A stretch of DNA of 64,000 nucleotides, from assembly GCF_000423705.1 (NCBI RefSeq), contig NZ_AUIM01000004.1:248001-312000 (forward strand), in the 5' to 3' direction. This stretch comes from Stappia stellulata DSM 5886. Its GTDB lineage: Bacteria > Pseudomonadota > Alphaproteobacteria > Rhizobiales > Stappiaceae. Each line of letters starts with the position of its first letter. Positions within the stretch are counted from its first letter, which is position 1. The translations under genes were made by a program, and so were the position numbers. The notes beneath the pieces are model-generated. The model had not been told where the DNA came from, searched no databases, and saw only the letters and a list, made by a program, of their open reading frames with translations. Shown piece after piece: positions 1,486 to 48,671 of the stretch.

Positions 1486-2985
1486 ATGGATAACGTCCTT
1501 CAGGGATTTATGATGGCATTCGGCCCGGAGCAGATTCTCTTCTGCTTCGTCGGGGTCCTTCTGGGCACCTTGGTCGGTACGCTCCCGGGTATCGGAGCCG
1601 CGGCCTGCATATCGATCGTCCTGCCGATGACCTTCGGGCTTGACGGGCTAACTGCGCTGATCATGCTTTCCGGCATCTTCTACGGCTCCCAGTACGGCAG
1701 TTCGACGGCCGCGATCCTGCTGAACATACCGGGCACCTCGACGGCCGCCGTCACCTGCCTCGACGGCTATCCAATGGCGCAGCAGGGCAGGGCGGGCACG
1801 GCGCTTTTTGTCACCACGATTGCATCCTTCATCGGCGGCAGCATCGCCATCATTCTTCTGATGGGCATTTCTCCGGTGCTTGCGAAGCTCGCCTTGCAGT
1901 TCGGATCGGCAGAGTACTTCGCCGTCATGGTACTCGGGCTGGTCGCGGCGCTCTCGATGGGCGCGGGCAGCGTCGCAAAGGGCGCGGCGATGACCGTCCT
2001 GGGGCTCCTGCTCGGCACGTTCGGCATGGATATGACGACCGGAGCCATGCGCTACACCTTCGGTTTTCCCGAGATGACGGAGGGCATCGGTATCCTCGTT
2101 CTCACTATGGGGCTGTTCGGCGTTTCCGAACTGCTTGAGAACGTCAGCCGCCGGCAGGTCGCCGCGCCTGCAGCACACAGCTACAAGCTGCGCACCATGC
2201 TGCCGAGCCGGGCGGAACGCCGGCAGATGTATGGCCCGTGCTTCCGCGGAACGGCGATTGGATCCTTGATCGGGGCGCTGCCCGGTGCGGGGCCAACGGT
2301 CGCGGCCTTCCTCGCCTATTCGCTGGAGCAGAAGGTCTCGCGCACGCCCGAAAGGTTCGGCAAGGGCGCCATCGAGGGGATCACCGCGCCCGAGGCCGCC
2401 AACAACGCGGCGGTCCAGTCGGCCTTCATCCCCACGCTGAGTCTCGGCATTCCAGGCGATGCGGTGATGGCCATCCTGCTTGCCGCAATGACGCTTCACG
2501 GCATCATCCCCGGCTCTCAGTTCATGACCTCGGAGCCGGAGTTCTTCTGGGGACTCATCGCGAGCTTCTGGATTGGCAACCTGTTGCTGCTGGCGCTCAA
2601 CCTGCCGCTCATCGGATTGTGGGCCCGCATCACCAGCATCCCGCATTACTACCTGTCGGCACTGATCGCCATTTTGATCCTTCTTGGCGTCTACAGCGCC
2701 CGCAGCAGCCTTTTCGATGTCGCGCTTGCGATCCTCATCGGCGTGGCGGGCTGGGTGCTGTCGCGCAACCGATACCCGATGGCGCCGCTTATCCTCGGCT
2801 TCGTGCTCGGACCGCTTCTCGAGGAGCATTTTCGGCGCGTCATGCTGATCTCCCGCGGTGACCTAACGGCGCTGTGGGGCAGCGAGGTCGCGCTCGTGCT
2901 CCTGCTGACGGCGGTGGGCCTCGTCGTACTGACCGTATGGCGTCATCTGCGGCGCGATGGACCAGAGACTGCCGCTGCGCCCTAG
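1486..2985 (+). CDS. TctA-family large membrane subunit of a tripartite tricarboxylate transporter
   Basis: This 499-residue, very hydrophobic protein has the usual TctA length of about 500. Family motifs are visible: GTLPGIGAAA near residue 30, GIFYGSQYGSSTAAILLNIPGT near 65 to 86, and in the second half a repeat of the same fold with GALPGAGPTVAAF and EAANNAAVQSAFIPTLSLGIPG. It is the transmembrane permease of a TTT importer in the inner membrane. It lies 47 bases after tctB and is probably in the same transcript. The binding protein for this pair is not beside it; the intact tctC at 14,772 or the broken copy near 8,500 are candidates. The ATG at 1486 begins a typical TctA N-terminus. Confidence 0.93.
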   Translation: MDNVLQGFMMAFGPEQILFCFVGVLLGTLVGTLPGIGAAACISIVLPMTFGLDGLTALIMLSGIFYGSQYGSSTAAILLNIPGTSTAAVTCLDGYPMAQQGRAGTALFVTTIASFIGGSIAIILLMGISPVLAKLALQFGSAEYFAVMVLGLVAALSMGAGSVAKGAAMTVLGLLLGTFGMDMTTGAMRYTFGFPEMTEGIGILVLTMGLFGVSELLENVSRRQVAAPAAHSYKLRTMLPSRAERRQMYGPCFRGTAIGSLIGALPGAGPTVAAFLAYSLEQKVSRTPERFGKGAIEGITAPEAANNAAVQSAFIPTLSLGIPGDAVMAILLAAMTLHGIIPGSQFMTSEPEFFWGLIASFWIGNLLLLALNLPLIGLWARITSIPHYYLSALIAILILLGVYSARSSLFDVALAILIGVAGWVLSRNRYPMAPLILGFVLGPLLEEHFRRVMLISRGDLTALWGSEVALVLLLTAVGLVVLTVWRHLRRDGPETAAAP

Positions 2986-3642
2986 GTGTGATGTGTGATG
3001 TCCCATAAGGGTGTTCCTGGGGACCAACCGCCTGAAGCTGGTTGTTACGACAGAGCTGGCTGACAGGGGGAACCCGGATGGCAGCTCGTCATCAGACGGG
3101 CGATCCACTTGGCCACCTCGCGGCGGCGTATGACATTTCTCAGCGCACGGTGTTCAAGTGGCTGATGCGCTCCAGCGTGGCGCGCCGGCTGGCGGAGGCC
3201 GGACTGTCGCGGATGTCCCGGTTTTGTTCGGTCGAACCTGTGTGCCGCTATCGGCGCGAGCGACCCGGCAAGCAATTCCTCCCCCCGGAAACGGCGGCTT
3301 GGCGGGAATCGACGATGGCGGGATGGGCGCCCTCAGCCCGGATCCGCATCTCGCGCGGGTTCACGACCCGGCGCTGCTTCAGCCTGAGGGACGGACACCT
3401 TCGCGAAGATATTGTTTCCGATATATCTTCGTTGGTCCATACCTGATGGACGGTCGCGCGAGTCCGCGGCCGGCGGCTCTCCCGCACTCCGGAGATCCTC
3501 ACGGTTAGGAGAGCCGTGCCGGTTGGGAACCAGGGAGCCACGGCGAGGGCAAACCGAGAAGGCTCGCGCCGCGCCCTCCGGCGGCTGCAAAGAAGAGCGT
3601 TGCAGTGGCGACGACGACCGTGCGCCAGCGACCGGCCAAGGC
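2986..3642 (+). pseudogene. Gene-poor stretch with a possible decayed transposase N-terminus
   Basis: Between tctA and ubiX no intact gene is convincing. From an ATG at 3078 a frame encodes about 30 residues resembling the helix-turn-helix at the N-terminus of IS481/IS3-type transposases (PLGHLAAAYDISQRTVFKWL). The frame then loses any family resemblance, suggesting frameshifts or truncation. The rest, 3,450 to 3,642, shows nothing I can name. The call rests on one short HTH match and is weak. Confidence 0.3.
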
Positions 3643-4215
3643 TTAGCTTCGTCCGGTCCAGCGGCCGGCAACGCCGGCATCGATATCAAACAGATCGAGA
3701 AGCCGGCCGACCGAATGGTCGATGATCTGTGTGATCTCCTGCGGGCGATTGTAAAAGGCCGGCACCAGCGGCGCAACGATGGCGCCGGCCTCCGTAACGG
3801 CCGTCATGGAGCGCAGATGGCCAAGATGGAGGGGCGTCTCCCTGAGGCCGAGCACAAGCCTGCGACGCTCCTTGAGGACGACGTCGGCGGCGCGGGTCAT
3901 GAGCGACGATGTCACGCCCGTGGCGATCTCGCTCATCGTGCGGATCGAACACGGCAGTATCAGCATGCCGCGTGTGCGGAACGATCCCGAGGCGATCGAT
4001 GCGCCGACATCGCCGATCGGATGGCAGTGATTGGCGAGCGCCTTCACGTCGCGCGGGGCGATGTCGACTTCGGAGCGCATGGTCATTTCCGCAGACTTGG
4101 TGACCACGAGATGCGTCTCGATACCGAGCGCGCTCAGGATCTCCAGAGCCCGGATCCCGTAGATCACGCCGGAGGCTCCCGAAATTCCAACGATCATGGG
4201 CGACGATGCGGTCAT
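3643..4215 (-). CDS. ubiX: UbiX-family flavin prenyltransferase
   Basis: This 190-residue protein has the normal UbiX length. UbiX joins a dimethylallyl group to FMN, giving prenylated FMN, the cofactor of UbiD decarboxylases. Seen here are the N-terminal GISGASGVIYG flavin-phosphate motif, LPCSIRTMSEIATG in the middle and the C-terminal series LKERRRLVLGLRETPLHLGHL followed by PAFYNRPQ. All are hallmarks of the family. A UbiD-family decarboxylase is encoded at 12,996 to 14,492, so a working pair is present in the cluster. The start overlaps the stop of a small upstream ORF by ATGA, which implies translational coupling. Confidence 0.93.
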   Translation of the reverse strand: MTASSPMIVGISGASGVIYGIRALEILSALGIETHLVVTKSAEMTMRSEVDIAPRDVKALANHCHPIGDVGASIASGSFRTRGMLILPCSIRTMSEIATGVTSSLMTRAADVVLKERRRLVLGLRETPLHLGHLRSMTAVTEAGAIVAPLVPAFYNRPQEITQIIDHSVGRLLDLFDIDAGVAGRWTGRS

Positions 4216-4463
4216 GAAGGGGTCATGCGCAGATCGGGATGGATGGGGTTCGCGACGGCGGGAGGCATGCTTGGTGGAACGTTGGCGCGGACAGAGAGGC
4301 CCCGTTCACGAAGGGCTGCACATGCGCGGATCGCTCCAGGCGGACCGGAAACCGGTCGCCTGAACGGCCGCGCCCTTTGGGATTGGATGACGGCATGGAT
4401 CTTGTGCTGGCCGTCATGCGCTGCGGCATCGCTTATCTGCCAGCTTGGTCGTTCGCAATCCAT
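4212..4463 (-). CDS. Small protein of unknown function, coupled to ubiX
   Basis: An 83-residue frame starts at an ATG at 4463 preceded by GGGAGA at good spacing, and its TGA overlaps the ubiX ATG (ATGA). That arrangement is why I treat it as a gene. The product is basic and proline-rich, has no membrane segment and no CxxC pair, so it does not look like the small zinc-containing subunit of hydroxyarylate decarboxylases. I do not recognise it. The divergent promoter region with an operator at 4546 lies just upstream. Confidence 0.45.
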   Translation of the reverse strand: MDCERPSWQISDAAAHDGQHKIHAVIQSQRARPFRRPVSGPPGAIRACAALRERGLSVRANVPPSMPPAVANPIHPDLRMTPS

Positions 4464-4541
4464 ACTCTGTCTCCCTCTGTGTCCTTCGCGATGTCCTGCA
4501 GGCTCGTGTCAGTCTGGTTGACGCTACGATACATCACGCGC

Positions 4542-4557
4542 AAAGTGTCGACAGTTT
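4542..4557. promoter_or_regulatory. TGTYRACA operator in a divergent promoter region
   Basis: AAAGTGTCGACAGTTT has the fully symmetric core TGTCGACA at 4546 to 4553 with A- and T-rich arms. It lies between the leftward ubiX unit (start 4463) and the rightward amidase unit (start 4665) and could control both. Confidence 0.6.
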
Positions 4558-4664
4558 AAGCAAGGGTGTGCTGAATGGAAAGGCCCAAGCTCCCAAATCC
4601 TTTGGTTCTGGGCGAGCATCATGCTGGTCCGGGGGGGGCGAGGGAGACGAAAAGGAGATTGGAC

Positions 4665-4931
4665 ATGGCGGCAGACGATGGCGACACAATCGACGGCGGG
4701 GGTGGCGCCGGCGATCGGGAGACCGGGCCGGAGCCGACCCGGCAGGGACGGGCAGGGCAGTCGACCGCCAATGTCCGGCAGGCCGGCTCTATCGGAGCTG
4801 CCACGGAGCGGTCGGCCGGACCGAGCGGCAGGCGCGATCACCGCGGGCCCTTTGAACCCGGAGTTGCGTTCGCTCCGACTGCCGAGCCGGCTTACCGCTT
4901 CGTGCCGGACAATGAGCCGGACGCATCATGA
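4665..4931 (+). CDS. Small protein of unknown function, coupled to the amidase
   Basis: The start is an ATG with AAGGAG seven bases upstream, and the TGA overlaps the amidase ATG by ATGA. The 88-residue product is rich in Gly, Asp and Arg in its first half and ends in a more ordered segment (FEPGVAFAP, then YRFVPDNEPDAS). It could be a small accessory subunit of the amidase, in the way small AtzG or GatC proteins pair with other amidase-signature enzymes, but no similarity to those is visible. Function is unknown. Confidence 0.55.
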   Translation: MAADDGDTIDGGGGAGDRETGPEPTRQGRAGQSTANVRQAGSIGAATERSAGPSGRRDHRGPFEPGVAFAPTAEPAYRFVPDNEPDAS

Positions 4932-6337
4932 TCGCGTATCCGACCATCGCCGAGGCCGGCCGGATGCTGCGCGCCGGCGCGATCAGCAGCGTAGACCTGA
5001 CCTTGCATCATCTCGAGCGAATTGCGCGGCTCAATGATCGGATCGATGCTTATCTGGTTGTCCTGGAGGAGCCGGCGCTTGCCGCGGCCGAGCGTGCCGA
5101 TGCCGCTTTTCGTGCTGGCGCGGACCATGGCCCGATGCATGGCATCCCGTATTGCCTTAAGGATATCTTCGACGTCGCGGGCATGGTCACAACGTGCCAT
5201 TCGCGCATCGTACCCGAAGAGCCGGCGGCCACGGATGCCGCCGTTGTGGTCCGGCTCGCAGCGGCCGGAGCGATCCTTCTCGGCAAGACCGCCCTGCACG
5301 AATTCGGTACCGGCGGTCCGACCTTCGACCTGCCTTTCCCTCCGGCCCGCAATCCATGGAACCGGAACCATCATCCGGGCGGCTCGAGCAGCGGGTCGGG
5401 CGCTGCGGTCTCCGCCGGCCTCGCAATGGCGGGCATCGGCACGGATACGCTCGGATCGGTGCGCAGCCCGGCAACGGCTTGCGGTCTCGTCGGCCTGAAG
5501 CCGACCTATGATGTGGTGCCGCGCCGGGGCTGTTTCCCTCTTGCCTTTTCGCTCGATCATGTCGGGCCTCTGACCCGCACGGTGGAGGACTGCGCGCTCA
5601 TCATGGACGTCGTCGCCGAGCCCGCCCGAGGGGGCGGCTCCTATGGTGCGGAACTCGGGCACGGGCTCAAGGGGCTGCGCATCGGCACGCTCGCCTCCTT
5701 TCACGAAGCGGCCGGGGCGATCGATCCTGATATCGAGGCGGGTTTCGGGAATGCCCTTGCCGCCCTGCGCGACGTCGGCGCCGAGGTCGTCGCGATCGAC
5801 GATCTTCCGCCCCTTGCCGCGTTTCAGACCACGGCACTGACGATCCACCGCGCAGAGGCCTATACGATACATCAGGCCTGGCTTGCCGAACGACCGGACG
5901 ACTATTGCGCCATCAGCCGCGAAAAGCTGCGGGCAGGTGCGTCGCTCGGCGCGTCCGATTTCATCACCGCGCAACAGGCGCGGGGCGAACTCATCGCGCG
6001 CTACCGGCGCGCGACAACGGGGGTCGATGCCGTGATCGGGCTGTCCTCTTTCGCGCTTCCCTGTCGGATCGACGATCAGGCCGCGCTCGGTGAGACCTAC
6101 CGGCGCCATATGCGCACGCCCTTCAATGTTCTTGGGTATCCGACCCTGTCCATGCCCGTCGGATTGTCGAGCACCGGTTTGCCGCTCGCCGTACAGCTCT
6201 CGGCGCGTCCCCATGGCGAGCCACGCCTTCTGCGGATCGCCGACGGTCTGGAGCGGGCCCTCGGCCGGATGAACACGCCGCCGGGTTTCGCCTGGGAGGG
6301 CGCGCGACCCATGGGATTGCCGGACCCTGCGGGTTGA
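4928..6337 (+). CDS. Amidase-signature family amidohydrolase
   Basis: This 469-residue protein belongs to the amidase-signature family, which hydrolyses C-N bonds with a Ser-cisSer-Lys triad. The triad is visible with family spacing: Lys78 in YCLKDIFDV, the cis-Ser near 153 in GGSSSGSG and the nucleophile Ser177 in GTDTLGSVRSPA. The residue before GS is Leu, where most members have Gly. The C-terminal part has NVLGYPTLSMPVG, common in the GatA/allophanate-hydrolase branch. The substrate is unknown; in this cluster it could release a carboxylate from an amide intermediate. It is translationally coupled to the small ORF before it. Confidence 0.92.
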   Translation: MIAYPTIAEAGRMLRAGAISSVDLTLHHLERIARLNDRIDAYLVVLEEPALAAAERADAAFRAGADHGPMHGIPYCLKDIFDVAGMVTTCHSRIVPEEPAATDAAVVVRLAAAGAILLGKTALHEFGTGGPTFDLPFPPARNPWNRNHHPGGSSSGSGAAVSAGLAMAGIGTDTLGSVRSPATACGLVGLKPTYDVVPRRGCFPLAFSLDHVGPLTRTVEDCALIMDVVAEPARGGGSYGAELGHGLKGLRIGTLASFHEAAGAIDPDIEAGFGNALAALRDVGAEVVAIDDLPPLAAFQTTALTIHRAEAYTIHQAWLAERPDDYCAISREKLRAGASLGASDFITAQQARGELIARYRRATTGVDAVIGLSSFALPCRIDDQAALGETYRRHMRTPFNVLGYPTLSMPVGLSSTGLPLAVQLSARPHGEPRLLRIADGLERALGRMNTPPGFAWEGARPMGLPDPAG

Positions 6338-40450: not shown

Positions 40451-40942
40451 TCAGGCGGTCGCGGCGTAGTCCTCGTCGGACAAGCCGAGCTTTGAGGCGA
40501 TGCTGCGCTGCTGATCGGTCAACGCGGACTTGCCGGCGGCCAGGTCCTTGTCGTCGAGATCGGACGGCTTGCCGATCACCGGCAGGGTTCCGACCAGATC
40601 CTTGAACCGGTCGAGACCGCCCTCCTGGGCGCAAAGTGCGCGGTAGTGATCGCGCGAGGCCGGGGCGATCTTGCCGGCTTTCACGGCGTCCTCGATTGCC
40701 GCATTCACGTCCGCCTCGCGGATCTTCCGTTGTTCGGCTGCAAGCGCCGTCTCGGCCGTATCGGCGCGGGCGATCGCCTGGTCGTAGTCGGCGCGCGGAA
40801 CGAAACGCTCCATGTCCGGCGCCTGGGCGGCGGCAACCGCCGTCTGGTGTTCGGTCTTGAGGCGTTCGACGGCGGCGAGGATGTTGTCGATCGAAGCGCC
40901 GGCATCGAGGCCGAGCGCGCGGCAAAGGGCTGTGAGGTCCAT
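40451..40942 (-). CDS. Nested scaffold protein, Mu gpZ-like, from an internal start
   Basis: An internal in-frame ATG (codon 174 of the protease gene) follows GGAGA at short spacing. It starts right at the scaffold domain (MDLTALCRALGLDAGASIDNI), after a Ser/Pro/Asp linker. It would give a separate 163-residue scaffold, as Mu gpZ is made from gene I. Confidence 0.65.
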   Translation of the reverse strand: MDLTALCRALGLDAGASIDNILAAVERLKTEHQTAVAAAQAPDMERFVPRADYDQAIARADTAETALAAEQRKIREADVNAAIEDAVKAGKIAPASRDHYRALCAQEGGLDRFKDLVGTLPVIGKPSDLDDKDLAAGKSALTDQQRSIASKLGLSDEDYAATA

Positions 40943-41461
40943 GGGGGTCTCCGGGAGGTTGGAGGGAGCATCTGTTGAAGCATCAGGGGAAGCGGGATCT
41001 TCGGCGCGCGAGAGCGCGGCCATGCGCAGCGCCGGGCGGTTGACCAGGCCGGCACCGGCAAGGCGGAGGATGTCGCCGGTCTTGGAGTGAAGGAACTCGG
41101 GCGACAAAAAGCGGTACTCGCGCGCCACGATCATGGCGGCGGCCTTGTCGGTCCACTCGACCGCGCCCCAAAGCGCGCCGTCGCGGATCTCCATCGCGGT
41201 GATCCAGCCGGCTGCCGGCGCGGTCTCGCCTTTCGGCGCGCGGTGCGCCTGGCTGTGTTCATAGTCGATGGGAAGCGGCGCGCCGTTGGCCTCAAAGGCC
41301 GCGATCACCGACGCGGGATCGGACAGGCGCCAGCGCCGGCCGTCGCGGGCAACCAGCTCCGGCCCGGCCGGAAAGAGCTGCACCCATGCGGGCGCCGCCG
41401 ATCCGGTCTCGGAGGCGATGGCGGTTGTCGAAAAAAGGGCGGTTGCGGTTCGCGTTGTCAT
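40451..41461 (-). CDS. Prohead protease-scaffold, Mu gpI-like
   Basis: The 336-residue protein has an N-terminal protease domain (PLPIDYEHSQAHRAP, AAGWITAMEIRDGALWGAVEWT split, YRFLSPEF) and a C-terminal helical scaffold part. Mu gpI is built the same way. The start is the ATG at 41,461; the open frame extends to 41,491. The late site at 41,500 lies just upstream. Confidence 0.9.
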   Translation of the reverse strand: MTTRTATALFSTTAIASETGSAAPAWVQLFPAGPELVARDGRRWRLSDPASVIAAFEANGAPLPIDYEHSQAHRAPKGETAPAAGWITAMEIRDGALWGAVEWTDKAAAMIVAREYRFLSPEFLHSKTGDILRLAGAGLVNRPALRMAALSRAEDPASPDASTDAPSNLPETPMDLTALCRALGLDAGASIDNILAAVERLKTEHQTAVAAAQAPDMERFVPRADYDQAIARADTAETALAAEQRKIREADVNAAIEDAVKAGKIAPASRDHYRALCAQEGGLDRFKDLVGTLPVIGKPSDLDDKDLAAGKSALTDQQRSIASKLGLSDEDYAATA

Positions 41462-41499
41462 GGGCGACAACGTGCAGGACGCACCGCACACCCGCGCCC

Positions 41500-41512
41500 C
41501 TGACAGTGTCAG
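41500..41512 (-). promoter_or_regulatory. Late-operon activator site (palindrome) before the head operon
   Basis: CTGACAGTGTCAG, identical to the site at 29,009 and with the same CGCGCCC flank, lies 38 bases upstream of the protease start. Confidence 0.7.
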
Positions 41513-41898
41513 GCGGATGAGTGCCAGGACCGGCGATCAAATCCGGTCGAAAACGTCACTTCCCGGCTTCACCACCCGCACGATGCAAACCGCACCCGCG
41601 CCCCGGCGACAGCTTCGCCGTTAAAGGGGGTTTAAAGGGGGTAGGACGCGCGTTTGGGGGTGGCGGCGGGGATTGAGGCGGAGCACAACCGGAAGCGCCT
41701 CATGAAGCGAAATCGACGGAGGTTCAGAGCGTTGGTGAGTTGGCGATACGATATGCAGGAATTTGTCAGCCGCTAGGAGTTGGAGTGTCTAGCAACCCCA
41801 GGGAGATTCAAGACTTATACCACCGCCCGGCGCGAGGGATGGCCATTTCGCCTGAGCCAGATAGTCTCTTCAATGTGAGATATCCAGGGTAGAGACAC
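41513..41898. other. Border between phage head operon and cargo
   Basis: No gene is seen. There are two close repeats of TTAAAGGGGG near 41,620 to 41,640. Base composition falls from GC-rich phage to more AT-rich cargo around 41,730. The promoter for the phosphoribosyltransferase-like gene should lie here. Confidence 0.5.
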
Positions 41899-42438
41899 AT
41901 GACAGTCAGTTCTATTGAGTTGCCAACCGGAGAGACCGTTACCGTTTTTCACGTCACGGAGGGGACAGGAACTGCCGGGATATATTTCAATGTAATGCGA
42001 ACTAAAAACAATTATGTGCCTTCGGTGCAGGTGAATTACCATGCGTTGATCCCGAAGTTTCAGACCGTTCTGGTGCAACAAATCGAGGCGAGTGGCTTTT
42101 GCTTCGATGCAATCGTCTGCCCGCCAAGTTCCAGAAACGATTTGCAGCCATATCGTGATGCGATCCTCGGCAAATGGCCCGTCCGCGATTTCACCGAGAC
42201 GTTCACCCGCAAGGGTGAGATCAAGGCGCAAAACAGTGAGACGACCGTCGATGATCTGGTCGAGCGCGAGTTTGTGCATTCGCCGAACGGCTACGAACCC
42301 TCGATCAAATCGATACTCATCGTCGACGAAACCATAGTAACAGGAAAGTCCGCTGCGGCGTTGATCAAGCTGCTGCGCCGCGCTGGGATGCCCGCCGATT
42401 CGCGAGTTGCGATTGCCGTCTGTTCGAAGATGAACTAG
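41899..42438 (+). CDS. Phosphoribosyltransferase-like protein, cargo
   Basis: The 179-residue protein has the type I phosphoribosyltransferase hallmark SILIVDETIVTGKSAAALI at about 137 to 155, the loop that binds PRPP (normally a DD/DE pair followed by TGxT). FDAIVCPPSSRNDLQPYRDAI near 70 to 90 could be the flexible-loop side. The N-terminal 50 residues are beta-rich and unlike known metabolic enzymes. The gene is on the opposite strand from the phage genes, and its TAG shares the bases CTAG with the stop of the convergent zinc-ribbon gene. It may act with it and with the KAP protein; a PRPP- or nucleotide-linked role in defence is inference. Confidence 0.7.
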   Translation: MTVSSIELPTGETVTVFHVTEGTGTAGIYFNVMRTKNNYVPSVQVNYHALIPKFQTVLVQQIEASGFCFDAIVCPPSSRNDLQPYRDAILGKWPVRDFTETFTRKGEIKAQNSETTVDDLVEREFVHSPNGYEPSIKSILIVDETIVTGKSAAALIKLLRRAGMPADSRVAIAVCSKMN

Positions 42439-43352
42439 CGGAGGTTTCGCGCCACTTCGCTCAATAGGACATCGAAGTTTTGCCTAAAGTCGACTTGTGT
42501 CGGCGTAGGAACATTCTCCCTCGCTCGGATGTGTGTGTGCAATGCACCATCCGCGATGTGGCGGAGCGACGTTTCGATTTGCTGGAGCGAGCCCTTTATC
42601 GATTTGGAGCTGTTACTTGCAACCTGACTGAAACTATTGCGACCGAAAATGGGTGGCACGTGGTCTACGATCGCGCGGGCAAGCATGGCCGTCGAAATCG
42701 TCCTGCCGGAACGCCAAGCATCGTTGAGCTCTTCACACATTCTTAGGAGACGAGACAAATCGAATTGATCGCTCTCGATGGCTCGGAGCTCCGCAATCCT
42801 TGCGGAATCTACAAAGTTGTCGCCCGAATAGCGACGTGCTGACGGGCGCTCCGTGGCCTCCAAGTGATCCCAAGCCGCACCGGTCAATCGATAGTTGTCG
42901 TCGGGCACGAACTCGATCAGTCCTTTTTTTTCGGCATCATCAATCAGGTTGCTCGCCGCATCTGGGGATGCAGCGCCTATGATGGAGCAGATGTCGGTTC
43001 CTGAGAATGCTATGGCTTTGAAGTGATCTTCACCGGCCTGTTCTGCCATCCAACGTAACAGGTTTTCTCGCTGCTGTTTCGGCGATGGCAGTTTCTGCGC
43101 TACCATGTCGTCGATCATATTTGAATGGATTTCCAGCCACTCGTCCTCGGAAGAATGTAGACGGATGTAGTGACTGACCTTGGCTACAACGAGTTCATTG
43201 ACGGCGCCGTTCGACTCGTGGAAACGACCTCTAAGCACTGCCACTGCACTGCCGGTGATCATGAAGGGGCCGCATCGGTTGCATCGAAACTGCCGCATGT
43301 CACCGCGCCTACCCGCCTCGGCGCTGCTGCCGCACACATCACATTTGGCCAT
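42435..43352 (-). CDS. Zinc-ribbon protein of unknown function, cargo
   Basis: The 305-residue protein starts at an ATG at 43,352 with a zinc ribbon (Cys4, Cys7, Cys24, Cys27; MAKCDVCG then FRCNRCGPFMITG). A middle region of 100 to 160 looks like a winged helix (GTDICSIIGAASPDAASNLIDDAEKKGLIEF). The C-terminal 120 residues are helical, with AMLARAIVDHVPPIFG then LQQIETSLRHIADGALHTHIR, a pattern I recall from uncharacterised proteins of bacterial immunity loci. The gene ends in convergence with the phosphoribosyltransferase-like gene and follows the KAP gene by 94 bases. No enzyme function can be assigned. Confidence 0.65.
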   Translation of the reverse strand: MAKCDVCGSSAEAGRRGDMRQFRCNRCGPFMITGSAVAVLRGRFHESNGAVNELVVAKVSHYIRLHSSEDEWLEIHSNMIDDMVAQKLPSPKQQRENLLRWMAEQAGEDHFKAIAFSGTDICSIIGAASPDAASNLIDDAEKKGLIEFVPDDNYRLTGAAWDHLEATERPSARRYSGDNFVDSARIAELRAIESDQFDLSRLLRMCEELNDAWRSGRTISTAMLARAIVDHVPPIFGRNSFSQVASNSSKSIKGSLQQIETSLRHIADGALHTHIRARENVPTPTQVDFRQNFDVLLSEVARNLR

Positions 43353-43446
43353 CGCCGTCTCTCCGCCACAAGATCCGAATCCGTCTAGTACAGATTTCGA
43401 AATCATAATTCCCGCACGCCCAGTTCGACTGCTCGGCCGGTATCAT

Positions 43447-46400
43447 TTACTGTTCGGGCTGGTCTCCTTCGGAATTTTCTGACTGGGAGCATGAGAGAGC
43501 AAGAATTTCACGTATACGCTGGCGCACGCTATCACTCTCCTCGTCCTCATCGGAAGAAGTACGGCTTTCGAGATGGTCACAAAGTTCTCCGATAATTGAA
43601 GGTTCCTCTACTCCCTTCAGCACCTGCCGCATCTGTCGTTCGTTGTCTTTCAAGAAATCAAGTGCTGTGGCTGATCCGTTCAGCGCTGCTTCCACCGAAG
43701 GCAGTATGATCTTTCGGGCAGCAACATCGGAGCGCTTTGTTAGTGGAAGTTGTGCAAGCAGCTCGGAATAGCAGGTGAGCGCAACGTCTATACCCGCGGA
43801 TGTGACAACCGTGTTGTCCAGAAGGTCCAGCACATCTTTCGCCAAGCCTGCTCTTGAATTGACTGGAACAGCACGCCAGACGGAATCAAAGTCTTTTCGC
43901 GACGGTCTTTCGCCGGACAGCATGCCCAGGACATGATCCTTGATAGCTGTTTTTATTTTGTCCGGTGGAAGGGTTAGCTTGGCGTCTATTACACGTTGGC
44001 GCAAGACATCAACGAGACGCGTCTCATCGAGCAGCGATTGCGTCAATGTGTCGGCGTCTTGATCGACTAGCCATTTATCGATCGTGGTATACATGGCCTG
44101 CCAACCCTGTTCCTGGCGCTTGGCATTGTCGGCGATCAGGGAAAGCGGAAGATCCGGGGGTGCCAACGATGTCCATTCCTCGGTTTTTCTCACGATGCCG
44201 GTACGTGCTCGGAGAGCTTCCATATCTTCACCCAGCAGCTCTTTGAGAAACTCATAGTGTGTTGCTAGGGCCGAAGGCGGAGGTGGTGCGAAATCGTTGC
44301 GTTGTATGACTTTCAGAATGGCGTTCTGAACGAGACGGGTCTCGCGGGGGGCGGCCGCCGCCCAGTCGATCCAAGCCTCAAGCGTATCACCGTCTCGGAT
44401 CAACTCGGATAGTTTGCTGACAGACCCGTCACCAATCTCTGCGTCCCGTATAGCCTTATTCACCCAATCTCGTTGCGCATTGAGGTCACCGAAGGCGTGA
44501 GCCTGAAGATTGGTTACTTCCGGCGCCTTTCCCTCTGTTTCACCCAGAATCAACCAAAAGGCCGCTGCCAGCCCTTCATCCACTCGGTCATTTTTTGAGT
44601 TACGAATAGCTTCAATATGATGGTAGAGGGCGCCATCACTAACCAAGTCTTGGCGTGCCGTCGTCAACGCACTGGTCATTGTACTATCTGTTATAAGCTT
44701 ATTATAGGACTTTAGCATGATGATAAGGTCGTCGATATCTTCGACCTTTGTTTCCTGTAAATGAGCACTCAAGGCTCCTGCAAATGTGGCCGCCTGTCCT
44801 TTTCCTAACAGCGCGCGCAGCTCGGGCCAAGCATAGTAAAACTCCTCAGGATTTTCGATAAGCCTTGAATCCAACGCTCCGTTTAGGTCCTTTGTTTTCG
44901 GTCGATTCTTGAAGTTTGCTAGGCGTAGACCCGTTAGGTCTGCATCGAATGCGACGCCGATGAGAAATTCGTCGCTTTCGGGGAATTCAATATTTGAAAT
45001 CAGTTCCAGTGCTTCATCCTCGCCGTATTCCGTCACGAGCACCTTGTGCATCTTGCCGACGAAGGAGATCCAATCGCGACCGTGAGAGAAACCGCGTTCC
45101 TCTCTCTTGGGCAAAGAGCGCTGCAGCCACGCGGCCAGTGCCAGCGTCCATTGACGCCCTTCGCTGCGATCGCACAGCTCATACAGTCTCAACAAGTCTT
45201 CCTGCTCGCTCCAAGAAGCAGGAGAGACGGCAACTAGTTCTCCCAGCGCTCCCAGCAAGGCCCGCTTACTTTCAAGCCTGTTGGAGGGGCTCGCATTGAG
45301 GTTTGAGAGGTTGCGAACCGCATTTCTGAACTGTGTCGCGGATGTACTCGCCCAGATCTTCGCTTTGTCTCTGTAGACGTCTGGCAAGATTGTATCCCAG
45401 CCAGGCGAGTCCATGATCGCGTTTACCTCATCCTCGGGTGTGATGCCTGTGAATAGCAATTCAATTCGACCGTCTAAGAGCACCTGCAGAGCAAGGTCGG
45501 GATCTACATTATAGGCTAGCGCCGCCAGATGCTTGAATAGGTCTGGGTCATCGGCCAGGTCGCGTTGTCGCTCATCAATTTCGTCGGGCCGGCGAAGCGA
45601 TGTCGGATCAACTGAAAGCTTTTCACGATTTGCCATGAAAAGCGCGATCGTGGGTATGGGAATGCGCCCTTCCCATTGTTCCCACAGGCCTGTTACCGCG
45701 TTGATGAACGCGATGATCTGGCGGGGAGTGGACAACGATCCCTGACAAGAAATGTCAAAAATTTTGTACGCTCGATAACCGACCTCTTTATCGATTTGAT
45801 CGTCAAGGGCTTCCAACAGTTTCAGGGCAAAGAAAGCAGACGCATCGGAGATAACAGGTGCTGCTACAAACAGGATGGCGTCGAACGACTTGCGCAGGAG
45901 GTCTTCCTGAACTTTCTTGTCAGCGTCGGTCGTGATTGCAGTTAGGTCGGTCGTGATCGCAGTTAGGATGTGCTGACGATCGTAGGGAATAATCAACGTG
46001 ACCTTTCTCTCAGTGCCATCACTGGCGCGGTCCGCCGAGACGATTGCGCGAATGTTCGCCCACGCGTCCTGTATTCCGTCGTTCGGAAGACGATCAACAT
46101 TGTCAAACACGATGATGATGCGCCGCTCTTTTGTCTGATAACCCCCGATAATGTCCTTGAAAGTCTTCTCGAACTCGTGCTGCGAGGGATCAATTTCGCG
46201 AATGCGTTGCTCAAGATGCGTGGTTTCCGCATCTTTCGAGAAAAAGGAAAGCGTACGCGAGATCGCGGCGAGCATCGACATGTTTTCCCCTCTCTGAGGA
46301 CGCGGCTCGTCGTTCCACCATCGCTTGATCAGGTAATATGGACCCCGGTATCCGTTCCCATTCCACCACATGTAGACGATGTGAACTGTGATCAAGGCCG

Positions 46401-46977
46401 CCATGATGCAGACGCCGTACCTCGCGAATACTCCATAGCCACTCGCGATGGCGCTCTTGTTGGAGAATGCAAAGGGGCTGAGCCACATATATATAAGTGG
46501 CAGAAGGAGTATGAAAATAAGAACGATGAGACCAAAAAAAGTAAACGTTTTTTCGTTGCTTGTTCGCGTATTGATAGTTCGATTTGTGATTTGATCGTAG
46601 ATTTTATTCAGAGATTGACGGTCACTTTGCGGCTGAGATTTTAGCCACGCGATCAGTTGCTCCAGAAACGTTCGTCGGAAGTTGCCGGTCTGGTGTGCCC
46701 ACAGATCATACGTAAAGATGTGATATGCACGATTGTTCGAATTCTTCTTCTGCTGATGAGCCTCAATTTCAAGCGTCTTCTTTGCCATCTCAACGATAGA
46801 GGACTTGCCCGATCCCCAGCGGCCCTCAAGGCCGATCGCACGTGTTTCGCCATCAAATTCGCGGATTAATCGTGCGAGGCCGTTAGCTGTTCTAGCATGC
46901 CCACCACCGGTAAATGCATCTGTCTCAGCCGGTCGATCGTATATAATCTGTCGCTTGACAGTTTTCCCTTTTGACAC
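43447..46977 (-). CDS. KAP-family P-loop NTPase with inserted membrane segments, cargo
   Basis: The 1,176-residue protein starts at GTG 46,977. Residues 1 to about 480 are a KAP NTPase: Walker A GRWGSGKS (52 to 59), then two membrane segments at about 147 to 165 and 186 to 205 inserted between Walker A and B, and Walker B RIIIVFDNVDRL (286 to 297). The membrane insertion is the defining trait of the family. Residues 480 to 1,176 are helical repeats without known motif, ending in an acidic tail. KAP NTPases are anchored on the inner face of the membrane, and several act in anti-phage systems such as Qat. The gene is clearly more AT-rich than the phage genes around it. The likely role is phage defence; this is inference. 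Confidence 0.85.
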   Translation of the reverse strand: MSKGKTVKRQIIYDRPAETDAFTGGGHARTANGLARLIREFDGETRAIGLEGRWGSGKSSIVEMAKKTLEIEAHQQKKNSNNRAYHIFTYDLWAHQTGNFRRTFLEQLIAWLKSQPQSDRQSLNKIYDQITNRTINTRTSNEKTFTFFGLIVLIFILLLPLIYMWLSPFAFSNKSAIASGYGVFARYGVCIMAALITVHIVYMWWNGNGYRGPYYLIKRWWNDEPRPQRGENMSMLAAISRTLSFFSKDAETTHLEQRIREIDPSQHEFEKTFKDIIGGYQTKERRIIIVFDNVDRLPNDGIQDAWANIRAIVSADRASDGTERKVTLIIPYDRQHILTAITTDLTAITTDADKKVQEDLLRKSFDAILFVAAPVISDASAFFALKLLEALDDQIDKEVGYRAYKIFDISCQGSLSTPRQIIAFINAVTGLWEQWEGRIPIPTIALFMANREKLSVDPTSLRRPDEIDERQRDLADDPDLFKHLAALAYNVDPDLALQVLLDGRIELLFTGITPEDEVNAIMDSPGWDTILPDVYRDKAKIWASTSATQFRNAVRNLSNLNASPSNRLESKRALLGALGELVAVSPASWSEQEDLLRLYELCDRSEGRQWTLALAAWLQRSLPKREERGFSHGRDWISFVGKMHKVLVTEYGEDEALELISNIEFPESDEFLIGVAFDADLTGLRLANFKNRPKTKDLNGALDSRLIENPEEFYYAWPELRALLGKGQAATFAGALSAHLQETKVEDIDDLIIMLKSYNKLITDSTMTSALTTARQDLVSDGALYHHIEAIRNSKNDRVDEGLAAAFWLILGETEGKAPEVTNLQAHAFGDLNAQRDWVNKAIRDAEIGDGSVSKLSELIRDGDTLEAWIDWAAAAPRETRLVQNAILKVIQRNDFAPPPPSALATHYEFLKELLGEDMEALRARTGIVRKTEEWTSLAPPDLPLSLIADNAKRQEQGWQAMYTTIDKWLVDQDADTLTQSLLDETRLVDVLRQRVIDAKLTLPPDKIKTAIKDHVLGMLSGERPSRKDFDSVWRAVPVNSRAGLAKDVLDLLDNTVVTSAGIDVALTCYSELLAQLPLTKRSDVAARKIILPSVEAALNGSATALDFLKDNERQMRQVLKGVEEPSIIGELCDHLESRTSSDEDEESDSVRQRIREILALSCSQSENSEGDQPEQ

Positions 46978-47405
46978 GGCTCCAACCTTCCCCGAAGTTT
47001 CTCTAATCTTCTTAAGTATCCAGATATTCTATAGGCAAAAGCATCACTTGGCATGAAAAGCCGGTTGACGCTCCTCGAGTAGCTCTGAGCCTGTTCGATG
47101 ACTTTAGCTTATGCCAACACATACAACGGCATCAACCCGGTCGCCATTTTCCAGCGGGCGCGAATGTAAGATCAGATTAAAGGGAAGCTTCCGGTATTAG
47201 TAGTCTGACCACGGAACGGCGGCGTTGGGGGCGGGAAGCAGACGTAAGATTGTAGGTTGCCTATCAGTCGTTGATCTCCCTTTGGGTTTTGCAAGTTTTT
47301 GTTTTTGCCGGTATCTTCAGTTATGCACACGGGCAAATCAAGCCTCCGGGCGCGCTCGGCCACATGCGTTGGCGAAGGGTTTGCGACCTTCTGCCCGTGT
47401 GCCCT
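46978..47405. other. Border between cargo and phage gene F
   Basis: No convincing gene is present. The part next to the KAP gene is AT-rich and has TATAGAAT and TTGCCT-like boxes on the minus strand near 47,030 that may form its promoter. The part beyond 47,330 is GC-rich phage sequence. Confidence 0.45.
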
Positions 47406-48671
47406 TCACTCCAGAGCCGTTCCGGGTTGCTTTTCGAAGTAGCGCGCTTTGCCGCGTGGGCGGAACAGCGTGCGCAAGCGCCAGTGCCCGCCGTGCGGAT
47501 CCAGCACAATGAACAGACCGGTCGCGGGATCGAAGGCACGCATGGTGCCGGCGAGGTCGCGGCGCAGCCGCGCGCGTTTCAGTATGTCGCCGAAGTCCGG
47601 CCAGGCGGAGACATCGACCACCCGCCTGTGATCGGCCGCATGGCCGATGGTCGCCGCGTCGATCATCACAGGCAGATAGTCGTCTCCGAAGCGCCCCGGC
47701 GCGATCGCCACCGGAAAGCGGGTCATGGCGAAGCCGTGCTCGCCATTCAGTCGCGCTGCAATGTCGCGGCCCGATAGCCCTTCCGCCTTGAGCGCAGGCA
47801 CCCGTGCGGCGCGCTTCAGGCCAACTTCGATTGCGTCCTGGACGAAGACCTTGAACGCCGGCGACGCCGTGAAGTCGGCGATCGCCGCACGCCGCGCCGG
47901 TGTCGACAGCTCGTCAAGCCGGCCGGACAGCAGCTCGGCGACGTTCTGCCCACGCGTCTTGCCGGGATTGGTGTCCCAGCCCGGATCGATGCCGACCGGG
48001 ACCTTCACCGTCTGACCTGTGCGCCTGTTGCGCCAGGGCCGCATGACGATCTGAGGCCCGCCGGCTTCCGGGTCGTAGCCGAGACGCTCCGCCTCGCGCC
48101 GTGAGATCTGGCGCACGCCGCATTTGCAGCCCCAGCCGTTCGGCGGATAGTGGGTGTCCCAGAACGGATGATCGACAGGCAGGATCACGCCGACCCAGCC
48201 GCGGTGTTCGGGCCGGCGGCGTTCGGCGAGCGAGAGCGTATAGACCAGGTACGGCAGGAAGCGCTTGGTGCGCTGGGTCCGCTCCCATTCGCCAGCGGCA
48301 TGGGCTGTGCGGATGTTCGCCCAATAGATCGTGCGCAGGCGGCGCGGGCTGCCGAGCTGCACGTATTTGGAGACGCCGTCGGCCGGGTCTTTCGCGAAGC
48401 GCTTGCCCCACCATCCTTTCGCCTGCAGCGTCGGTGTCAAACGCGCCTTGAAGTCCTCGAAGGGCACGCGGTTGACGATGGCGTCGTCGACGGCCTTGCG
48501 CAGATCCTTGAGCACGTCGAAGCCGGCGGACTTGGCGACGGTGAAGGCATAGGCATGTTCGCGCGGGGCGATGTCGCGCCAATCGAAGGTCGGGCGCGAT
48601 CCTTTCTCCCGGAAATAGCGCGTGACCTCCGGCGAGGCGGTCAGGAACTCGTCGGGCAGATCAGCCGGCAT
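47406..48671 (-). CDS. Minor head protein, Mu gpF-like
   Basis: The 421-residue protein has the phage head morphogenesis domain: AYAFTVAKSAGFDVLKDLRKAVDDAI, RLRTIYWANIRTAHAAGEWERTQ split, and VDHPFWDTHYPPNGWGCKCGVRQIS, the conserved WGC.C loop. It follows the portal gene with a short overlap. Confidence 0.92.
   Translation of the reverse strand: MPADLPDEFLTASPEVTRYFREKGSRPTFDWRDIAPREHAYAFTVAKSAGFDVLKDLRKAVDDAIVNRVPFEDFKARLTPTLQAKGWWGKRFAKDPADGVSKYVQLGSPRRLRTIYWANIRTAHAAGEWERTQRTKRFLPYLVYTLSLAERRRPEHRGWVGVILPVDHPFWDTHYPPNGWGCKCGVRQISRREAERLGYDPEAGGPQIVMRPWRNRRTGQTVKVPVGIDPGWDTNPGKTRGQNVAELLSGRLDELSTPARRAAIADFTASPAFKVFVQDAIEVGLKRAARVPALKAEGLSGRDIAARLNGEHGFAMTRFPVAIAPGRFGDDYLPVMIDAATIGHAADHRRVVDVSAWPDFGDILKRARLRRDLAGTMRAFDPATGLFIVLDPHGGHWRLRTLFRPRGKARYFEKQPGTALE

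Follow-up and report, generated by a model that had tools for sequence, protein, structure and literature searches.

Background

In temperate phages of the P2 and P4 groups, antiviral hotspots have been described in which a fixed site of the phage genome carries changing sets of anti-phage genes (Rousset et al. 2022, PMC9122126), a study in which the term 'Mu-like' does not occur. In Mu-like phages of Pseudomonas of the D3112 type, the anti-CRISPR region is known in the literature as RGP G and has been noted for its low GC content (PMC4378225). We found no paper, within mostly open-access literature, in which a defence function is assigned to the corresponding site of Mu-like phages from Alphaproteobacteria.

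Individual proteins of known antiviral systems also provide terms of comparison. PifA is the phage-exclusion KAP protein of the F plasmid. QatA of the Qat system (QatABCD) is also a KAP NTPase (PMC13279940). AbiJ-NTD proteins share an N-terminal module, in some cases with a zinc ribbon, which is fused alternately to HEPN or TIR domains (PMC3710099). Phosphoribosyltransferases (PRTases) have been proposed as retron effectors, and a P2 hotspot carries a system that combines one with DprA (PMC9122126).

In this study we analysed a 64-kb window, i.e. the whole stretch of DNA under examination, in which a sequence-only reading had pointed to three genes within a Mu-like prophage as a candidate defence cassette, with a sensor, an adaptor and an effector-like component.

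Results

A foreign block within the head genes of a Mu-like prophage

ORF calling in the window confirmed the three proposed genes, here called PRT, Znr and KAP, at the positions first given for them. PRT (41899-42438, + strand, 179 aa) codes for a putative type I phosphoribosyltransferase-like protein and is convergent with Znr (42435-43406, - strand, 323 aa), whose product comprises a zinc ribbon and a possible winged helix (residues ~1-190) followed by an all-helical, HEPN-like C-terminal domain (~198-323); as had been observed, a single CTAG at 42435-42438 provides the stop codons of both genes. KAP (43447-46977, - strand, 1176 aa) codes for a KAP-family P-loop NTPase with two hydrophobic segments between its Walker A and Walker B motifs. 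These genes lie between gene F (47406-48671, - strand; phrog_220, E 1e-84), the left flank, coding for the minor head protein and DNA pilot, and gene I (40451-41491, - strand; phrog_328, E 1.4e-88), the right flank, coding for the head maturation protease. Portal, terminase, MuB-like, MuA-like and major head protein genes also surround the block, and the phrog profile matches of these flanking genes identify the element as a Mu-like prophage, in agreement with the original proposal; the same prophage is present in IMG/VR as a 43.9-kb contig.

The GC content of the insert is 52.4%, compared with 67.0% and 65.8% in its flanks and ~66% in the prophage overall, and the GC3 of its genes ranges from 0.56 to 0.64, compared with 0.83 for F, I and portal. 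The higher AT content reported by the sequence-only reading is thus real, and the contrasts in GC and GC3 mark the block as clearly foreign.

The edges of the insert were set against sister prophages with an empty slot (L023, L024/L156) or a different filling (L022, L153), the window prophage being L019. On the F side, homology to sister prophages ends at L019 11347-11349 (window ~47324), with weak homology in L020/L154 extending ~97 bp further past this edge, to L019 11444, and is found again on the I side from L019 16971-17013 (window 41701-41659) onwards. Between L019 and L020, whose F genes are 93% identical, the slot is the sole replaced block in 21 kb. By this comparison the insert is longer than the three-gene span, running from ~41,660/41,700 to 47,324, and the whole cargo block (~41660-47324) amounts to 5.6 kb at 52% GC. 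The earlier idea of a compact transferred unit accordingly survives as a foreign block in the prophage, one insert with sharp edges, but not in its extent.

The left cargo boundary is occupied by a structured element of 78 nt (47325-47402, - strand) directly after the F stop codon, which the seven closest prophages all retain, whether their slot is filled or empty. It has an 11-bp closing stem with inner hairpins (RNA fold z -2.65) and no Rfam match, and might function in termination or as a hot point for recombination. By the right boundary there are two tandem copies of TTAAAGGGGGT (41621-41642, + strand), which, with a CTGACACTGTCAG palindrome in the same region upstream of gene I (41490-41660), are kept in sister prophages and constitute a possible regulatory site. 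No RNA was matched in an Rfam search of the block. Promoter scans failed to identify a clear promoter for PRT and, upstream of KAP, detected only a single marginal site. The window is devoid of tRNA genes, so that the insertion cannot be attributed to a tRNA attachment site.

The F-I interval as a variable cargo slot

Among the 58 related phage contigs in which both F and I were callable, nine, including the window prophage, have more than 1 kb between these genes, compared with none of 78 contigs for the portal-F interval and none of 38 for the I-T interval. One of the nine long gaps (L079) contains no ORF of 100 aa. The cargo is more AT-rich than the carrier phage, and the fillings are mutually unrelated across sister prophages.

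The prophages nearest to that of the window (L153, L020/L154, L021/L155 and L022) include some from the same genus. In L153, of the same genus, the slot (2088-5715 of the reverse complement) holds a type IIG restriction-modification (RM)-like gene (REase_MTase_IIG, E 2e-33; Eco57I) and an overlapping gene for a 258-aa protein that gave no match. The slot of L020/L154 (L020 11562-16314) codes for a multiubiquitin-E2 protein, a ThiF/JAB (E1-JAB) protein, a DUF6527 protein, a CapP-like protease and a 244-aa protein, that of L021/L155 (L021 11552-15496) for an inactive sirtuin fused to nSTAND_NTPase7 (iSirtuin-nSTAND_NTPase7) with a 236-aa partner, whereas that of L022 holds DUF6680 and small genes, a set of three small genes being among the fillings of the closest prophages. 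More distant prophages carry an OLD/Gabija-type ATPase-TOPRIM (L042), a PtuA/AriAB-like ATPase (L029), an AAA_15 ATPase (L025) or fillings without assigned function (L026, L030 and L052). Small proteins at L026 11318-11932 and L030 11324-12509 display HEPN-like-looking motifs, e.g. FRNELAHG and FRNRVAHG. L023 and L024/L156 have an empty slot, F and I being ~360 nt apart.

Sequence comparison thus identifies the F-I interval as a variable cargo slot, with conserved flanks and changing cargo, known defence families among it, as expected of a candidate prophage antiviral hotspot. The slot is not devoted to defence alone, since it is vacant at two of the nearest sites and filled in L022, L026, L030 and L052 by genes without assigned function. 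The occurrence of RM-like, multiubiquitin/E1-E2, nSTAND and OLD-like genes in sister slots makes a defence role likely for the window cargo, and it is on this ground that the defence part of the initial proposal is retained.

The location of the slot also invites two other interpretations. Pseudomonas phage D3112 carries the anti-CRISPR AcrF2 in the interval before the protease gene, after gene G, and in Ochrobactrum phage POA1180 the annotation of the matching interval contains no gene. The presence of AcrF2 in the matching D3112 slot (PMC4378225) would fit counter-defence cargo (anti-CRISPR or anti-restriction) serving the phage instead of the host; however, anti-CRISPRs are small (~90 aa for D3112 orf30) compared with 5.6 kb including a 1176-aa membrane NTPase, and the restriction-modification, E1/E2 and nSTAND genes of sister slots are of defence type, so that we consider this explanation highly improbable. 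Ordinary phage or host genes, either replacing Mu gene G and morphogenesis functions or representing metabolic cargo, would be consistent with a position that is the site of G in Mu and D3112. Yet sister phages do without G, with the slot empty and the other head genes kept, and no phage morphogenesis family was matched, which leaves such an origin scarcely credible.

A probable stand-alone membrane KAP NTPase

KAP matches PF07693 over residues 31-429 (E 3.7e-18; 66.2 bits vs a cut-off of 20), with a Walker A motif, GRWGSGKS, at residue 52 and a Walker B-like motif, IIIVFDNVDRL, at ~287 (FDNVDRL near 291). Hydrophobic segments at residues 144-162 and 183-201, called from hydropathy only, fall between the two motifs, as do the transmembrane-like segments by which the KAP family is recognized, and the protein can be kept as the KAP NTPase, with predicted membrane insertion, that it was first taken to be.

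Around 20 KAP-related loci (25-46% identity, ~1,160-1,200 aa) were found in plasmids, prophages and chromosomes, the full-length relatives being single genes. The genome scan used short exact motifs, which will miss relatives, and sampling genomes of the class or the phylum added almost nothing. The nearest relative, from Bordetella petrii (L104), is 46% identical over the full length; a DUF2971 gene (L104 13714-14496) lies directly after it. Other relatives adjoin mobile-element genes, either integrase-like (L106, L118) or Tn7/Tn5053-type transposition-like (L117), and the one in L102 adjoins SIR2/HerA-like and integrase-like genes, all these neighbours having been called by ORF inspection and not by profile search.

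PADLOC and NCBIfam gave no equivalog match for the genes of the block. Membership of Qat was considered and rejected, the match to QatA being weak and local (33.8 bits vs an equivalog cut-off of 600) and the two neighbouring genes having no QatB, QatC or QatD match in NCBIfam or PADLOC. Motifs, architecture and relatives taken together point to a probable stand-alone NTPase, inserted in the membrane and broadly comparable to PifA.

A modular zinc-ribbon protein

The four cysteines of the proposed zinc ribbon are Cys22, Cys25, Cys42 and Cys45, and the C-terminal domain, described at first as helical, is all-helical with a HEPN-like predicted fold. Relatives of Znr begin at the equivalent of Met19, which suggests that the true start may be at 43352. 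The region after the zinc ribbon gave weak winged-helix matches.

The first ~190 residues are ~30-36% identical to plasmid proteins whose C-terminal parts differ, including a CAP12/Pycsar TIR domain (PF10137, E 3e-23; L003), DUF4145 (E 9e-12; L011, L099) and another type (L100). The last ~125 residues form a separate domain that recurs at the C-terminus of diverse proteins from phages and plasmids. From these alignments Znr is a modular protein, with a shared N-terminal module and swapped C-terminal parts, and appears to be of a sensor-plus-effector type rather than a plain adaptor. Neither the N-module nor the C-domain matched a Pfam family at threshold, a phage search with Znr returned no relative and Foldseek yielded no significant match.

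Two further loci were noted by inspection. In L099 (5013-10201), there is a four-base overlap between the gene for the zinc-ribbon-DUF4145 protein and the start of a gene for a 1317-aa, P-loop-like protein, a possible two-gene system. On a phage contig (L121, 7581-11418), a protein with the Znr C-domain lies near cytosine methyltransferase-like and Vsr-like nuclease genes.

The structure model of Znr is of low confidence overall, with only the C-terminal domain confidently predicted. The top structural neighbours of residues 211-323 include the HEPN toxin HepT (Z 8.9, 103 residues aligned, 2.8 A) and other HEPN proteins such as the homologue 1wol (Z 7.2), in a range (Z below ~13) that is weak for helical bundles and reachable by chance. 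Furthermore, the invariant R282 and H290 in the family alignment are spaced R-x7-H, outside the Rx4-6H of HEPN proteins. Because of both the Z-scores and this spacing, we call the modelled domain HEPN-like without assigning it to the HEPN superfamily. A link between this domain and DUF4145, suspected from motif likeness, drew no support from a profile-profile comparison (hhalign probability 0.8%, E 0.073, 34 columns).

HepT of MntA-HepT being the nearest neighbour of this domain, the genes might alternatively serve as a toxin-antitoxin or maintenance pair that takes no part in defence against phages, Znr being the HEPN-like toxin and KAP or PRT the antitoxin. The nucleotidyltransferase that partners HepT is nevertheless absent here, and relatives of Znr occur without KAP or PRT, which argues for regarding such a pair as very unlikely.

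An orphan phosphoribosyltransferase-like protein

PRT contains a PRPP-loop-like motif, VDETIVTGKS, at residue 142 after a hydrophobic strand (ILIVDETIVTGKSA), the arrangement by which such loops are recognized. It has weak matches to UPRTase, Pribosyltran, Apt and PurF, those to UPRTase and Pribosyltran lying below cut-off (17.7 vs 27 for UPRTase). Loop and weak matches would place PRT in the type I PRTase superfamily, so that the earlier description as a PRPP-loop protein holds for the loop itself, but family matches stay below cut-off. No relatives were found in phages, plasmids or viral contigs other than the window's own prophage, and distant matches in genomes correspond to PurF. The single-sequence model is poor (pLDDT 41). 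As far as sequence searches indicate, PRT is an orphan, for which a defence role is plausible by analogy with the PRTases mentioned above.

No co-occurrence of the three genes among the relatives found

The sequence-only reading had itself named the lack of conserved co-occurrence as evidence against a system. None was found: the examined flanks of the ~20 KAP-related loci contain neither Znr nor PRT, and the 14 Znr-related loci contain neither KAP nor PRT. In 15 whole genomes with KAP relatives, a search conducted without a positive control gave no Znr, and the sole PRT-like match was PurF. A three-gene system was consequently dropped as the main reading, and with it the conserved three-part cassette. 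The sensor-adaptor-effector trio is likewise not supported, in view of both this absence and the sensor-plus-effector type of Znr and the single-gene occurrence of KAP relatives.

A dedicated two- or three-gene system of this lineage, in which KAP and Znr would form one operon with or without PRT, would agree with several features of the locus: KAP and Znr are co-directional and separated by 40-94 nt, low GC is common to all three genes, and they lie within a single insert with sharp edges. Unrelated genes, however, often accumulate in such slots; partners are missing from all the KAP and Znr relatives found, and the nearest of the former, in Bordetella petrii, has neither Znr nor PRT. We therefore judge a dedicated system unlikely. 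A more elaborate version, which we put forward as a distinctly speculative one, would see KAP and Znr, possibly with PRT, as a new one-lineage defence system in which the membrane KAP gates a zinc-ribbon/winged-helix sensor with a HEPN-like effector. In other mobile elements the same N-terminal sensor would then act as a plug-in platform for driving effectors of the TIR, DUF4145 or HEPN-like type.

Discussion

The explanation that we favour, and consider somewhat better than an even bet, is that the block is lysogen-protecting cargo in the variable F-I slot, with KAP acting alone, Znr an independent sensor-toxin and PRT separate. Our confidence is higher for the defence slot than for the mechanism. 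From the position and edges of the block, the swapping of cargo, the domain content and the separate occurrence of the genes, we infer that the cargo would be expressed in the lysogen and would protect it against other phages.

Under this explanation KAP would be an autonomous membrane-inserted P-loop NTPase that, in the broad manner of PifA, senses an incoming phage, or what the phage does to the cell, and uses the energy of NTP hydrolysis to damage or shut down the membrane or macromolecular synthesis. The superinfecting phage would then be excluded, or the cell would die before progeny are produced (superinfection exclusion or abortive infection). Znr would represent a second, largely independent module, possibly co-transcribed with KAP given the short gap between them, in which the zinc-ribbon/winged-helix part may be triggered by nucleic acid or some other signal, and a toxic or regulatory output may come from the HEPN-like domain. 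PRT would be a third, unlinked gene, for which we propose no role.

If this reading is right, Mu-like phages in general would have a cargo slot in the gap just before the head protease gene, used for anti-CRISPR genes by Pseudomonas phages and for whole defence systems by those of Alphaproteobacteria, and sampling the F-I interval would offer a cheap route to new anti-phage systems. The locus also provides two candidates for testing, namely a family of stand-alone membrane KAP NTPases and an effector-swapping zinc-ribbon sensor module.

Comparison with known systems

PifA shares with KAP the KAP P-loop NTPase domain, being its best PADLOC match (E 7.7e-13), and stretches around Walker A and Walker B can be aligned. 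In contrast to full-length homologs, the two align in two local stretches only (180 aa at 23% and 63 aa at 30% identity), KAP has 1176 aa vs 741 aa in PifA, and no PifC-like neighbour occurs at the window locus. On these alignments KAP is broadly like PifA without being a PifA, and its similarity to PifA and QatA is real but local.

Znr resembles the AbiJ-NTD HEPN abortive-infection proteins in having an N-terminal module with exchanged effectors, but differs from them in that its N-module and C-domain fall outside the Pfam families at threshold and in the R-x7-H spacing, where theirs is Rx4-6H.

As in the P2/P4 hotspots, the window slot is a fixed temperate-phage site with swapped gene sets, whereas it belongs to Mu-like alphaproteobacterial phages and lies inside the head-gene cluster. 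A positional counterpart is RGP G of Pseudomonas Mu-like phages (D3112), where variable cargo of low GC content likewise immediately precedes the head protease gene; there, however, small anti-CRISPR genes follow gene G, whereas here, in phages with no G, the same place is taken by multi-kilobase gene sets of defence type.
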